64,000 bases of DNA from Gammaproteobacteria bacterium (GCA_022071965.1 JAJVIQ010000005.1:1-64000), one strand, 5' to 3'. Counted from the stretch's first letter, positions 48,028 to 51,976 are shown. The notes: a model not told the origin generated them from the sequence alone. Program-made: numbers and translations.

Positions 48028-48426
48028 TCAATCCGTGAAAATGTCGGCGAGCACCAGGCCCCAGACGATCACGCAGTTGGCCAGGCTGATGAATACGGCC
48101 GCGCTGCCCATGTCCTTGGCACGCTTCGCGAGGGCATGACGTTCCGCGGAGACACGATCGACGACCGCCTCCACCGCCGAGTTCAGCAGCTCGGTGACGA
48201 GCACCAGCAGCACGCTCGCGAGCAGCAGCGCCATCTGCACCAGGTCTGCCGGCAGCAATACCGCGACGGCCACCATGACCATGCCGAGCCAGACCTCCTG
48301 GCGAAACGCGGACTCGTGGCGATAGGCGCTCGCCAGCCCGTCCAGGGAGTACCGGAAGGCTTTCCGGATGCGCACCAGCCCGATCTTTCCCTTGAAGGGG
48401 TTCGTGTTCATCTCATCGACTGCCAC
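48028..48426 (-). CDS. dgkA: Diacylglycerol kinase (prokaryotic DgkA)
   Basis: Small trimeric membrane kinase recycling diacylglycerol from envelope reactions. At 132 residues it shows the family text RIRKAFRYSLDGLASAYRHESAFRQEVWLG, three membrane helices, and the active-site motif ELLNSAVEAVVDRV followed by KRAKDMGSAAV. GTG at 48426 with GGAGG upstream is preferred; ATG at 48411 is an alternative. It is convergent with mgtE. Confidence 0.95.
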   Translation of the reverse strand: MAVDEMNTNPFKGKIGLVRIRKAFRYSLDGLASAYRHESAFRQEVWLGMVMVAVAVLLPADLVQMALLLASVLLVLVTELLNSAVEAVVDRVSAERHALAKRAKDMGSAAVFISLANCVIVWGLVLADIFTD

Positions 48427-49256: not shown

Positions 49257-49562
49257 ATGCAGGCGGTGGTCATCATCCTCCAGGTCCTGGTGCTGACGTT
49301 GGCGATCGCGGGGCTGGTGGGAGAGCGGCTCTGCACCTTGTGCGGCGCGGCGTGGTCGTTCGGGGACGCCGGCAGCGGCAGCCGGGTCGTGGGGATCTCG
49401 CTGCCGTTCGCCGTGCCGTCGTATTTCCTCATACGGGCGCCGTGGCATTCGTTGGATCGGCACCTGGATGCCGCGGCCGAAGGCGTGGCGGCGACCGTAT
49501 CGGCGGTGTCGGAGCAGAATGAGCCCGCATCGTCGCGCGACAACCGACAGGTTCGTGCGTGA
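49257..49562 (+). CDS. Small single-pass membrane protein, first gene of the Lgt/radical SAM cassette
   Basis: A 101-residue protein with one N-terminal hydrophobic helix (MQAVVIILQVLVLTLAIAGLVGERLCTLCG; note CTLC right after the helix) and a polar Ala/Glu-rich C-terminus. There is no known domain. The frame is open upstream, but the ATG at 49257 starts the hydrophobic segment. Its stop overlaps the GTG start of the next gene by 4 bases (GTGA), and third-position GC is high, which supports real coding and translational coupling. Confidence 0.5.
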   Translation: MQAVVIILQVLVLTLAIAGLVGERLCTLCGAAWSFGDAGSGSRVVGISLPFAVPSYFLIRAPWHSLDRHLDAAAEGVAATVSAVSEQNEPASSRDNRQVRA

Positions 49563-49810
49563 AAACGATCTTCACGGCACTGTGGTGGATCATCCGTGTG
49601 CTCATCCTGCTGGGGCTGTTCCTTCTGGTTGCCGGCGCCGGCATCTGCGGCTACATCTACTACGAATTCAGCGCCCAGTACCACCGGCCAGGGCCGGGGG
49701 ACTGGCTGTTCATGGGGATGCTTGGGTCCTTGACGCTGCTGTTCGGGTGGATCTTCTGGGTCGTGATGCGAGCCCTGTTCCGGCCGCGGTCGAGCGCCGA
49801 TGGCTCCTGA
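49559..49810 (+). CDS. Small two-pass membrane protein in the Lgt/radical SAM cassette
   Basis: An 83-residue protein with two membrane helices (about 6-32 and 48-70) joined by a short YYEFSAQYHRPGPGDW loop and ending in a basic tail. No family is recognised. It starts with GTG overlapping the previous stop, and its 3' end overlaps the Lgt-like gene by 11 bases. The tight packing suggests a membrane partner of the Lgt-like protein or the radical SAM enzyme. Confidence 0.65.
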   Translation: MKTIFTALWWIIRVLILLGLFLLVAGAGICGYIYYEFSAQYHRPGPGDWLFMGMLGSLTLLFGWIFWVVMRALFRPRSSADGS

Positions 49811-50543
49811 ACGTGCCCTGCTCCTGCACGCGGTCTTCGAATGGGCCGCCATCCTCGCCGGCGCCCGGCTGTACTTTCACGAGCGCGGGCTGCATGGGTT
49901 GCGCGGCGCCCTGCAGCCGCAGAATTACGCCGTGCTGACCGGCTGCCTGCTCGGCGCGGCGATCGGCAACAAGGCGGTGTTCTGGGTGGACAATCCGCAA
50001 CTCTGGAACTCCGACACCGGTGTCGTCCAGTTCTTCCTGGGCGGACAGTCGATGGTCGGCGGTTTGGTGGGCGGCCATCTCGGCGTCGAGCTCGGAAAGT
50101 GGTTCGCGGGCGTGCGCCATTCCACCGGCGATCATTTCGTCTTTCCGATCCTGCTCGGCATCGTGATCGGTCGCCTCGGATGCCTCCTTGCCGGTCTTCA
50201 CGATCAGACCTTCGGCATCCAGACCAGCCTGCCGTGGGGTGTCGATTTCGGCGACGGGATCAGGCGGCATCCAACGCAGCTCTACGAGATCCTGTTTGCG
50301 ATGCTGCTCTGGGGGACGTTCAAACGCGGGCGCACGCGGCTGGCGGTCCGCCCGGGCCTGATGTTCAAGATTCTCCTCGTCTCCTACCTGTCATGGCGGC
50401 TGCTCGTCGACGCGATCAAGCCCGTCCCGTACGCCTATCCCATGGGCCTGAGCGGCATACAGCTCGTGTGCGCGGCGGCGCTGGCGCTCTGCATTCCGCT
50501 GCTCTTGGCGCAATTGCGGCGGCGCGAGGCCGTGCGTGCATGA
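49800..50543 (+). CDS. Lgt-like membrane protein (divergent prolipoprotein diacylglyceryl transferase family)
   Basis: A 247-residue polytopic membrane protein of the Lgt fold, which in canonical members moves diacylglycerol from phosphatidylglycerol to lipoprotein cysteines. Family blocks are GGQSMVGGLVGG (81-92), GRLGCLLAG (124-132) and HPTQLYE (157-163). However, the residue matching Escherichia coli His103 is Val86 and that matching Asn146 is Cys128. Arg125 (Arg143 equivalent) and Arg200 remain. It is therefore probably a paralogue that still binds a phospholipid but does a different reaction. It overlaps the upstream gene by 11 bases and the radical SAM gene by 4 bases (ATGA). Confidence 0.82.
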   Translation: MAPERALLLHAVFEWAAILAGARLYFHERGLHGLRGALQPQNYAVLTGCLLGAAIGNKAVFWVDNPQLWNSDTGVVQFFLGGQSMVGGLVGGHLGVELGKWFAGVRHSTGDHFVFPILLGIVIGRLGCLLAGLHDQTFGIQTSLPWGVDFGDGIRRHPTQLYEILFAMLLWGTFKRGRTRLAVRPGLMFKILLVSYLSWRLLVDAIKPVPYAYPMGLSGIQLVCAAALALCIPLLLAQLRRREAVRA

Positions 50544-51976
50544 GGCGCAAGGCGAGGCCCTATCTTTTCTACGACACGACCAGCGCGGTGTGCACGACCT
50601 GCCTGCGCGTGATCGAGGCGAAGATCCTGCTGAAGGACGGGAAGGTTTACATGGAGAAGTGGTGTCCGGCCCACGGCACGGAGCGGGCGCTGGTCAGCGA
50701 CGATGCCGACTACTATCGGCAGTGTCGCGAGCTGTGGATCAAGCCGCCGGAGATGCCGAATAGGTTCAACACCCGCATGCAATACGGGTGTCCTTACGAC
50801 TGCGGCCTGTGCCCGGATCACATGCAGCACTCCTGTCTCACGCTGCTGGAGCTGACCGATCACTGCAATCTCCGCTGCCCGATCTGCTACGCGGGCTCCG
50901 GCCCTGAGCGCTCGGGCAACCGGACGCTGGCGGAGATCGAGCGCATGCTGGACGCCATCGTCGCCAACGAGGGCGAGCCGGACGTGGTGCAGCTCTCCGG
51001 CGGTGAGCCGACGCTGCATCCGGATTTCTTCGCGGTGCTCGATGCGGCACGCGCGCGCGGAGTGCGGCACCTGATGGTGAACACCAACGGCGTGCGGCTG
51101 GGACAGGACCGCGAGTTCTGCGCACGGCTGTCCGAATACCGCAGGGCCTTCGAGGTCTACCTGCAGTTCGATTCGCGGCGGGCGGAGGTCTTGAAGGAGA
51201 TGCGCGGCGCGGATCTCACCCGCGCGCGCGAGCAGGCGCTGCAGCATCTCAATGAGTTCGACATCTCCACCACGCTGGTGGTGACGCTGAAAAAGGGCGT
51301 CAACGACGGCGAGATCGGCGACATCATCGGCTACGCGCTCGCCCAGCCCTGCGTACGCGGGGTGACGCTGCAGCCGATCCAGGACGCTGGCCGGGTGGAG
51401 GGCTACGACCCGAGGATCAATCGGCTTACGGTAAGCGAGATTCGCCGCCGCATCGCCGAGCAGACGGGCGTGTTCACGGCCGCGGACATACTGCCGGTGC
51501 CATGCAACCCGGACACACTGGCCATGGGATACGCGCTGAAGGTCGGGGGCGAGGTCGTGGCGCTCACGCGCTACCTCGACCCCGCGGTACTGCTCGAGGG
51601 CGGTCGCAATACCATCACCTTCGAACACGACGGCGAATTGAAGCAGCGCGTCTTCAATCTTTTTTCCACCAACCATTCGCCGGCGTCGCAGGCGAGCTGC
51701 CTTGCCGAGCTGATGTGTTGCCTGCCCCGCGTCAGCGCGCCCGCGGAGCTGACCTATCGCAACGTCTTCCGCGTGCTCATCGTGCAGTTCATGGACGCGT
51801 TGTCGCTGGACATCCGCGCCCTGAAGAAGTCGTGCATCCACCTCGTCCAGCCCGACGGCCGTCTCATCCCCTTCGAGTCGTTCAACCTCTTCTACCGTGA
51901 TGGCCGCGCTCAGTTGCTGCAGACGCTGCGGGAGGAGGTCGCGCGCGCAACCCGGGCCCGCCGGACGGAGATTTGA
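50540..51976 (+). CDS. Radical SAM enzyme of the Tes / MJ0619 type
   Basis: A 478-residue radical SAM enzyme. An N-terminal cysteine-rich part (Cys18, Cys21, Cys42 in CPAHG, Cys62, then GCPYDCGLCPDH with Cys84, 88, 91, and Cys99) precedes the radical SAM motif Cys109-x3-Cys113-x2-Cys116 and the SAM-binding QLSGGEPTLHPDF. This layout is that of archaeal tetraether synthase (Tes) and MJ0619, the latter described as a dihydropterin methylase. Tes couples lipid chains through C-C bonds. It starts at 50540 inside the Lgt-like stop; the longer upstream frame is shadow. The Lgt partner favours a lipid substrate, but this is inference. Confidence 0.85.
   Translation: MRRKARPYLFYDTTSAVCTTCLRVIEAKILLKDGKVYMEKWCPAHGTERALVSDDADYYRQCRELWIKPPEMPNRFNTRMQYGCPYDCGLCPDHMQHSCLTLLELTDHCNLRCPICYAGSGPERSGNRTLAEIERMLDAIVANEGEPDVVQLSGGEPTLHPDFFAVLDAARARGVRHLMVNTNGVRLGQDREFCARLSEYRRAFEVYLQFDSRRAEVLKEMRGADLTRAREQALQHLNEFDISTTLVVTLKKGVNDGEIGDIIGYALAQPCVRGVTLQPIQDAGRVEGYDPRINRLTVSEIRRRIAEQTGVFTAADILPVPCNPDTLAMGYALKVGGEVVALTRYLDPAVLLEGGRNTITFEHDGELKQRVFNLFSTNHSPASQASCLAELMCCLPRVSAPAELTYRNVFRVLIVQFMDALSLDIRALKKSCIHLVQPDGRLIPFESFNLFYRDGRAQLLQTLREEVARATRARRTEI

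Follow-up and report, generated by a model that had tools for sequence, protein, structure and literature searches.

A patchily distributed gene module linking Lgt-like and Tes-like proteins to small cysteine-helix membrane proteins, with a likely role in membrane lipids

Why would a bacterium hold a relative of Lgt, the prolipoprotein diacylglyceryl transferase, in one overlapping run of genes with a radical SAM (rSAM) enzyme of the Tes/GDGT-MAS type? The question was raised by a locus of a Gammaproteobacteria bacterium within a 64,000-nucleotide stretch of DNA (GCA_022071965.1 JAJVIQ010000005.1:1-64000), the whole of which is called the window here. An initial annotation had described four overlapping plus-strand genes, and an open reading frame check confirmed them, with overlaps of 4, 11, and 4 bases; given these overlaps, translation of the genes is probably coupled. 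The features were as follows.

49257..49562, plus strand: 101-aa two-helix membrane protein, helix 1 ending in GERLC26TLC29G; of the same kind as the 83-aa protein
49559..49810, plus strand: 83-aa two-helix membrane protein with a GTG start, helix 1 ending in VAGAGIC30G; proposed acceptor or partner
49646..49648, plus strand: codon of Cys30 of the 83-aa protein; candidate lipidation site, from sequence and motif statistics
49800..50543, plus strand: Lgt-like membrane protein of 247 aa (PF01790), from domain match, alignment, and fold
50540..51976, plus strand: rSAM enzyme of 478 aa, Tes/GDGT-MAS/TrsS superfamily, from domain, motif, and fold matches

Gene order was identical in a sister genome (L037), and the dN/dS values between the two were 0.31 for the 83-aa gene, 0.40 for the Lgt-like gene, and 0.13 for the rSAM gene; these three genes are under purifying selection. 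For the 101-aa gene the value was 0.97 at 67% identity, its counterpart in L037 encodes 86 aa, and there an 8-base gap, with no overlap, precedes the 83-aa gene; on these grounds the 101-aa gene may be under relaxed selection and perhaps decaying. The 101-aa protein has the charged residues ER within helix 1. The closest recognized gene upstream of the module encodes a diacylglycerol kinase (48028-48426, opposite strand), with MgtE beyond it, and RlmKL lies downstream.

The association of the Lgt-like and rSAM genes was followed in 90 loci anchored on the rSAM gene, drawn from the best 80 of at least 569 relatives in a genome contig scan together with the class genomes and the window, so that the set favors relatives nearest the window and many of its loci are akin to one another. 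An Lgt-like gene lay on the strand of the rSAM gene in 82 of the 90; 58 of these 82 pairs were spaced by 60 bases or fewer and 36 overlapped, the 4-base overlap recurring at other loci. The records came from Gamma- and Betaproteobacteria, Bacillota, Acidobacteriota, Cyanobacteria, Myxococcota, a Verrucomicrobiota-type lineage, Omnitrophota, and Planctomycetota, and a Bacteroidota plasmid also carried the module; in annotated plasmid records, only distant or unannotated relatives were present. Among 369 class genomes, an Lgt-like protein scoring above 200 bits occurred in 8 of the 10 with the rSAM enzyme and in 0 of the 359 without it (Fisher P = 6e-15, a value that, like the others given here, overstates independence because the loci are phylogenetically related); all eight genomes with such a protein thus also had the rSAM enzyme. 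Six rSAM loci had no local Lgt-like gene, four of them in genomes with an Lgt-like gene elsewhere, and the gene was absent from only two such genomes, both 72% complete. The neighborhood seen at the original locus is therefore conserved across several phyla, and this linkage rules out chance neighbors. The family is nevertheless patchy, being present in 14 of 100 genomes sampled from Acidobacteriaceae and in 16 of 104 from the Paenibacillus family.

Several loci carried further genes. In some betaproteobacterial loci, a fusion of an MFS transporter and a PlsC-type acyltransferase (PF07690 plus PF01553; L047, 5161-7041) lay upstream of the module, and at one betaproteobacterial locus an AMP-ligase-acyltransferase gene did so (L067, 1391-3490). 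In Oxalobacteraceae-type loci (L050, 7249-8004; L052, 7186-8004), a 250- to 270-aa protein with an N-terminal GGTGC helix, and in L052 a Sel1-like repeat, was encoded between the Lgt-like and rSAM genes. A defense system was considered and rejected, PADLOC having returned only generic viperin-like radical SAM matches. No paper describing the Lgt-like/Tes-like pair was found in the open-access literature searched, which is weak evidence of absence.

The Lgt-like protein matched PF01790 at 57.7 bits (cut-off, 24.9), and its predicted fold matched that of Escherichia coli Lgt (5AZB) with a Z score of 13.0 over 227 residues, the next fold reaching 8.3; the Lgt kinship first proposed for it is thereby supported. 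Its score against TIGR00544, 26 bits, was below the cut-off of 118.9. In an alignment of 84 Lgt-like orthologues with canonical Lgt proteins, the equivalents of E. coli R143, Y235, R239, and G154 were invariant (84/84; the first three are R125, Y196, and R200 in the window protein). The position of His103, in the HGGL motif, was occupied by Val in 75 and Leu in 9 and never by His or by the alternatives Tyr, Trp, and Phe, that of Asn146 by Cys in all 84, that of Y26 mostly by Glu, and that of R246 by Lys; the corresponding replacements in the window protein are H103 to V86, N146 to C128, and R246 to K207. New invariant residues, E97, K100, T109, and G110, would lie toward the cytosolic end of helix 3, judging from the Lgt fold.

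In published work on E. coli Lgt, mutation of Y26, H103, N146, or R246 abolishes complementation (PMC4728403, PMC13251419), and the latter source reports that H103, together with arm-2 and the head domain, sets protein-substrate specificity, that a Leptospira Lgt with Cys at the N146 position is partly functional, and that H103 varies elsewhere (PMC13251419). In view of this role of H103, the natural N146C enzyme, and the retention of R143, Y235, and R239, the pattern fits a protein in which the donor-lipid site may have been kept and the acceptor side rewired. Lgt binds phosphatidylglycerol, as the initial annotation noted; the core for this binding was retained in 84/84 orthologues, but three positions essential in E. 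coli Lgt, the H103, N146, and R246 equivalents, were lost. That the Lgt-like protein is the only Lgt of its host was ruled out, a separate canonical Lgt (270 bits) being encoded elsewhere in the genome (G000:C2). Distant Lgt-like proteins of myxobacterial and other types (L146, L147, L148, L136) had V/L/M-GG plus GRxGC...GCCYG, which suggests that rewired Lgt proteins make up a broader group.

The rSAM enzyme had the Pfam Radical_SAM domain and an MJ0619-type N-terminal zinc ribbon. Its best NCBIfam match, nearly full length, was TrsS (NF045646; 323 bits, below the cut-off of 490), and it reached 266.2 bits against Tes (NF045702; cut-off, 450); 66/66 aligned members matched TrsS at an E value of 1e-20 or better. 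The AlphaFold model (pLDDT, 88.8) superposed on GDGT-MAS (7TOM) over 422 residues with a Z score of 44.1 and an rmsd of 3.1, the next fold having a Z score of 19.7, and the full-length match supports the Tes/MJ0619-type identity originally assigned. The initial annotation had also described MJ0619 as a dihydropterin methylase. MJ0619 is GDGT-MAS itself, the enzyme by which membrane lipids of archaea are fused, and the authors of the structure judged the pterin-methylase annotation incorrect and irreproducible (PMC9433317), so "Tes versus MJ0619" is no real alternative and a pterin methylase, its basis gone, was dropped as a candidate. In the GDGT-MAS crystal, phospholipids occupied a hydrophobic pocket (PMC9433317).

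The ligands of the rubredoxin-like site (CX2CX20CX2H), the N-terminal cluster (CX3CX2C), and the radical SAM cluster (CX3CX2C) were invariant in 67/67 members. At the C-terminal cluster site, whose Tes ligand set (C338/C456/C470) beyond Met439 was deduced from conservation rather than from the structure, the equivalent of MJ0619 C456 was kept in 67/67 and that of C470 was Asp or Glu in 67/67; the Met439 position held Val in 35, Met in 30, and Ile in 2, the C338 position was variable, and Tyr459 was not conserved. The family has instead C322 and a CC pair at 393-394, and the C-terminal site of the window enzyme consists of C322, CC393-394, C432, and E446. Because this third cluster site is altered, C-C coupling of the Tes type may be doubtful in these enzymes and perhaps absent. 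The Lgt-linked rSAM enzymes formed one clade (support, 0.96), the deepest members of which were Lgt-linked too, and relatives without an Lgt link retained C470. Plasmid-borne relatives from Mycolicibacterium and a haloarchaeon (L140, 3971-6339; L141, 4010-6173) adjoin a methyltransferase gene. Archaeol is the only such lipid that haloarchaea are reported to make, and the placing of these relatives suggests that their subfamily has another function.

The small genes are a third component of the module, and their products carry a membrane-helix cysteine that the initial annotation had missed. Small membrane open reading frames with a helix motif [x]C[GAF] occurred at 0.348/kb beside the Lgt-like/rSAM pair on the same strand, against 0.010/kb on the opposite strand and 0.016 to 0.034/kb in distant stretches, and the helix cysteine was present in 69 of 117 small membrane frames beside the pair versus 30 of 180 in the controls (P = 5e-14). 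A small cysteine-helix protein was encoded in about 79 of the 82 Lgt-linked loci, 70 found by an automatic search, which misses some proteins with long upstream open frames, and 9 by eye; neither approach found one at L100 (a contig end), L115, or L124. Where a local Lgt-like gene was lacking, at six loci, some of which end near the gene, no such protein was found. The module looks patchy, mobile, and three-part, with a defined small partner.

The motif around the cysteine is [G/T/S/A]-[L/A/I]-C-[G/A], with a small residue at position -2 in 58 of 64 sites and Gly at +1 in 42 of 64; a slightly widened lipobox, [LVI][ASTVI][GAS]C, matched only 4 of the 64, and the motif would not be expected to suit signal peptidase II. 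The cysteine mostly lies 16 to 25 residues past the last charged residue, and the net charge is +1.5 before it and -0.25 after it. From this spacing and charge asymmetry, with topology taken from the positive-inside rule alone, the cysteine is predicted to sit where an in-to-out helix terminates on the outer side, the position that Lgt normally modifies. The proteins bearing it have different architectures: two-helix hairpins in the window, Proteobacteria, and Acidobacteriota; three helices and the end LLNAACFG in Bacillota; a B-box zinc-finger domain with one helix ending in LLLTICGA in Paenibacillaceae; and a short protein ending in GTGICGSLLS in Persicobacter (Bacteroidota). With this conserved cysteine in a membrane helix, the small proteins probably serve as acceptors or partners.

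Gene linkage, family membership, folds, kept and lost residues, and the recurrence of the cysteine helix are direct observations, and the membrane-lipid role first suggested for these genes is likely. The reading that we tentatively prefer, while placing it short of probable, is a noncanonical inner-membrane lipid-modification module in which the Lgt-like protein lipidates the small-protein cysteine and the rSAM enzyme alters acyl chains. The Lgt-like enzyme would bind phosphatidylglycerol or a related phospholipid through its conserved arginine/tyrosine network and move a diacylglyceryl unit onto the helix-end cysteine of a small partner, the helix of which, with a motif unlike a lipobox, would probably stay uncleaved. 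The cytosolic Tes-like enzyme would work from the inner face by means of a 5'-deoxyadenosyl radical, functionalizing the far ends of acyl chains, through C-C coupling or some other C-H modification, on either the donor phospholipid or the attached lipid. We infer the phospholipid substrate, the cysteine acceptor, the chain-modifying chemistry, and the order of the steps. Several points stand against this model. The replaced Lgt positions (Y26, H103, N146, and R246) are those at which E. coli mutants fail complementation (PMC4728403, PMC13251419), the rSAM C-terminal site is unlike that of Tes (Cys470 to Asp/Glu in 67/67, Met439 not conserved), and the small proteins, being of several unrelated architectures, could be regulators or scaffolds, their cysteine binding a metal or pairing in a disulfide, Cys128 of the Lgt-like protein being one conceivable partner.

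Part of this evidence also serves a lipid-only scheme, that of the initial annotation, in which the Lgt-like protein presents or transfers a diacylglyceryl or phospholipid unit, the rSAM enzyme edits or couples its chains, and the small proteins are unmodified scaffolds or regulators. The kinship of the rSAM fold and pocket to GDGT-MAS, the retained phosphatidylglycerol-binding residues, and the acyltransferase genes (MFS fusion or AMP-ligase type) upstream at some betaproteobacterial loci all agree with it, but it offers no reason for the shared depth of the helix cysteine in several small proteins that are unrelated to one another, and we regard it as possible though somewhat unlikely. If instead the small protein were the substrate of the rSAM enzyme, acquiring a thioether or other backbone or side-chain cross-link as in RiPPs, and the Lgt-like protein served as a chaperone in the membrane or as a second modifier, the constancy of the small cysteine-containing partners would be accounted for; the nearest folds after GDGT-MAS include the RiPP maturases SuiB and SkfB, and RiPP-lipoprotein hybrids exist (PMC12636315). 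However, the predicted place of the cysteine is the outer helix end, away from an enzyme in the cytosol, a leader-binding domain was not recognized, and the pocket is of a lipid-binding class, all of which makes such a role improbable.

A soluble cofactor or small-molecule pathway (pterin methylation or a TrsS-like function) with no lipid link would suit the match of 66/66 aligned members to TrsS, the higher score of the window enzyme against TrsS than against Tes (323 versus 266 bits), and the methyltransferase gene adjoining the haloarchaeal and mycolicibacterial relatives; it is very doubtful, the MJ0619 pterin annotation not having been reproduced (PMC9433317) and the constant partners being membrane proteins that include an Lgt fold. 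There is a similarly slim chance that the rSAM enzyme, aided by the Lgt-like protein, is a membrane-spanning fatty acid synthase making iso-diabolic acid or brGDGT precursors in aerobic bacteria. A part in brGDGT synthesis has been proposed for bacterial Tes homologues (PMC8941075) and the family has members in Acidobacteriaceae, but its third cluster site is altered, and a family as patchy as this one (14/100 and 16/104 genomes, as above) is hard to reconcile, as a general synthase, with an acid that was abundant in 17/17 cultures of acidobacterial subdivisions 1 and 3 (PMC13274423). Another Tes-family radical SAM protein, with an open frame of about 700 to 770 aa, is far commoner, occurring in most of the 100 Acidobacteriaceae sampled (genomes G376-G479; for example, G376:C10:93405-94268), and is a stronger candidate than the Lgt-linked enzyme for making iso-diabolic acid in that family.

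The lipidation model with a chain-modifying rSAM enzyme has a stronger form, which we consider unlikely in its entirety: a new membrane protein modification in which an uncleaved helix would receive, on the cysteine at its outer end, a phospholipid-derived anchor whose chains are altered or tail-coupled by the rSAM enzyme, possibly so as to span the bilayer, through a dedicated Lgt-like/rSAM pair in many phyla. More broadly, the linked gene set likely serves, in many unrelated bacteria, to attach or alter membrane lipids in a new way, and the module offers a concrete, testable case of lipid or lipoprotein modification absent from the literature searched. Databases would label genes like the Lgt-like ones prolipoprotein diacylglyceryl transferase, and for bacterial Tes homologues a role as brGDGT synthases has been put forward; these data indicate that the whole Lgt-like subfamily, and likewise the Lgt-linked rSAM subfamily, is something else. 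Caution is thus advisable before Lgt-linked rSAM genes are taken, in environmental studies, to mark membrane-spanning lipids.

Among known systems, GDGT-MAS/Tes (MJ0619; NF045702) shares with the window enzyme its fold, the rubredoxin-like CX2CX20CX2H, the N-terminal CX3CX2C plus His, and the radical SAM CX3CX2C; the window enzyme differs in being bacterial and Lgt-linked, in its score (266 against 450 bits), in the change of Cys470 to Asp/Glu, the nonconserved Met439, and the loss of Tyr459, and in its new C322 and CC393-394. TrsS, a radical SAM (seleno)protein (NF045646) for which no published function was found in the literature searched, is the best and a nearly full-length NCBIfam match at 323 bits, but the window enzyme falls below its cut-off of 490 and belongs to an Lgt-linked family. 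Mss, a bacterial membrane-spanning lipid synthase, reportedly has the Tes catalytic architecture and couples fatty acyl tails (PMC13274423); it is tied to iso-diabolic acid, mainly under anaerobic conditions, the comparison with the present family being by description only. Canonical Lgt (TIGR00544, 5AZB) has in common with the Lgt-like protein its fold, PF01790, and the R143, Y235, R239, and G154 equivalents, whereas the latter scores 26 against 118.9 bits, replaces H103 by V/L, N146 by C, Y26 mostly by E, and R246 by K, and adds the invariant E97, K100, T109, and G110. The distant Lgt proteins MSMEG_5408 and that of Leptospira, likened here by description, also have Cys at the N146 position, and the available portion of the source mentions no radical SAM partner for them (PMC13251419). 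Although the MYXO-CTERM/myxosortase system concerns a tag at the C terminus of exported proteins and involves an inverted topology, cleavage by a protease, and no radical SAM enzyme, it likewise features, near a membrane helix, an invariant cysteine for which lipidation by an Lgt-like enzyme is predicted (PMC11980579).
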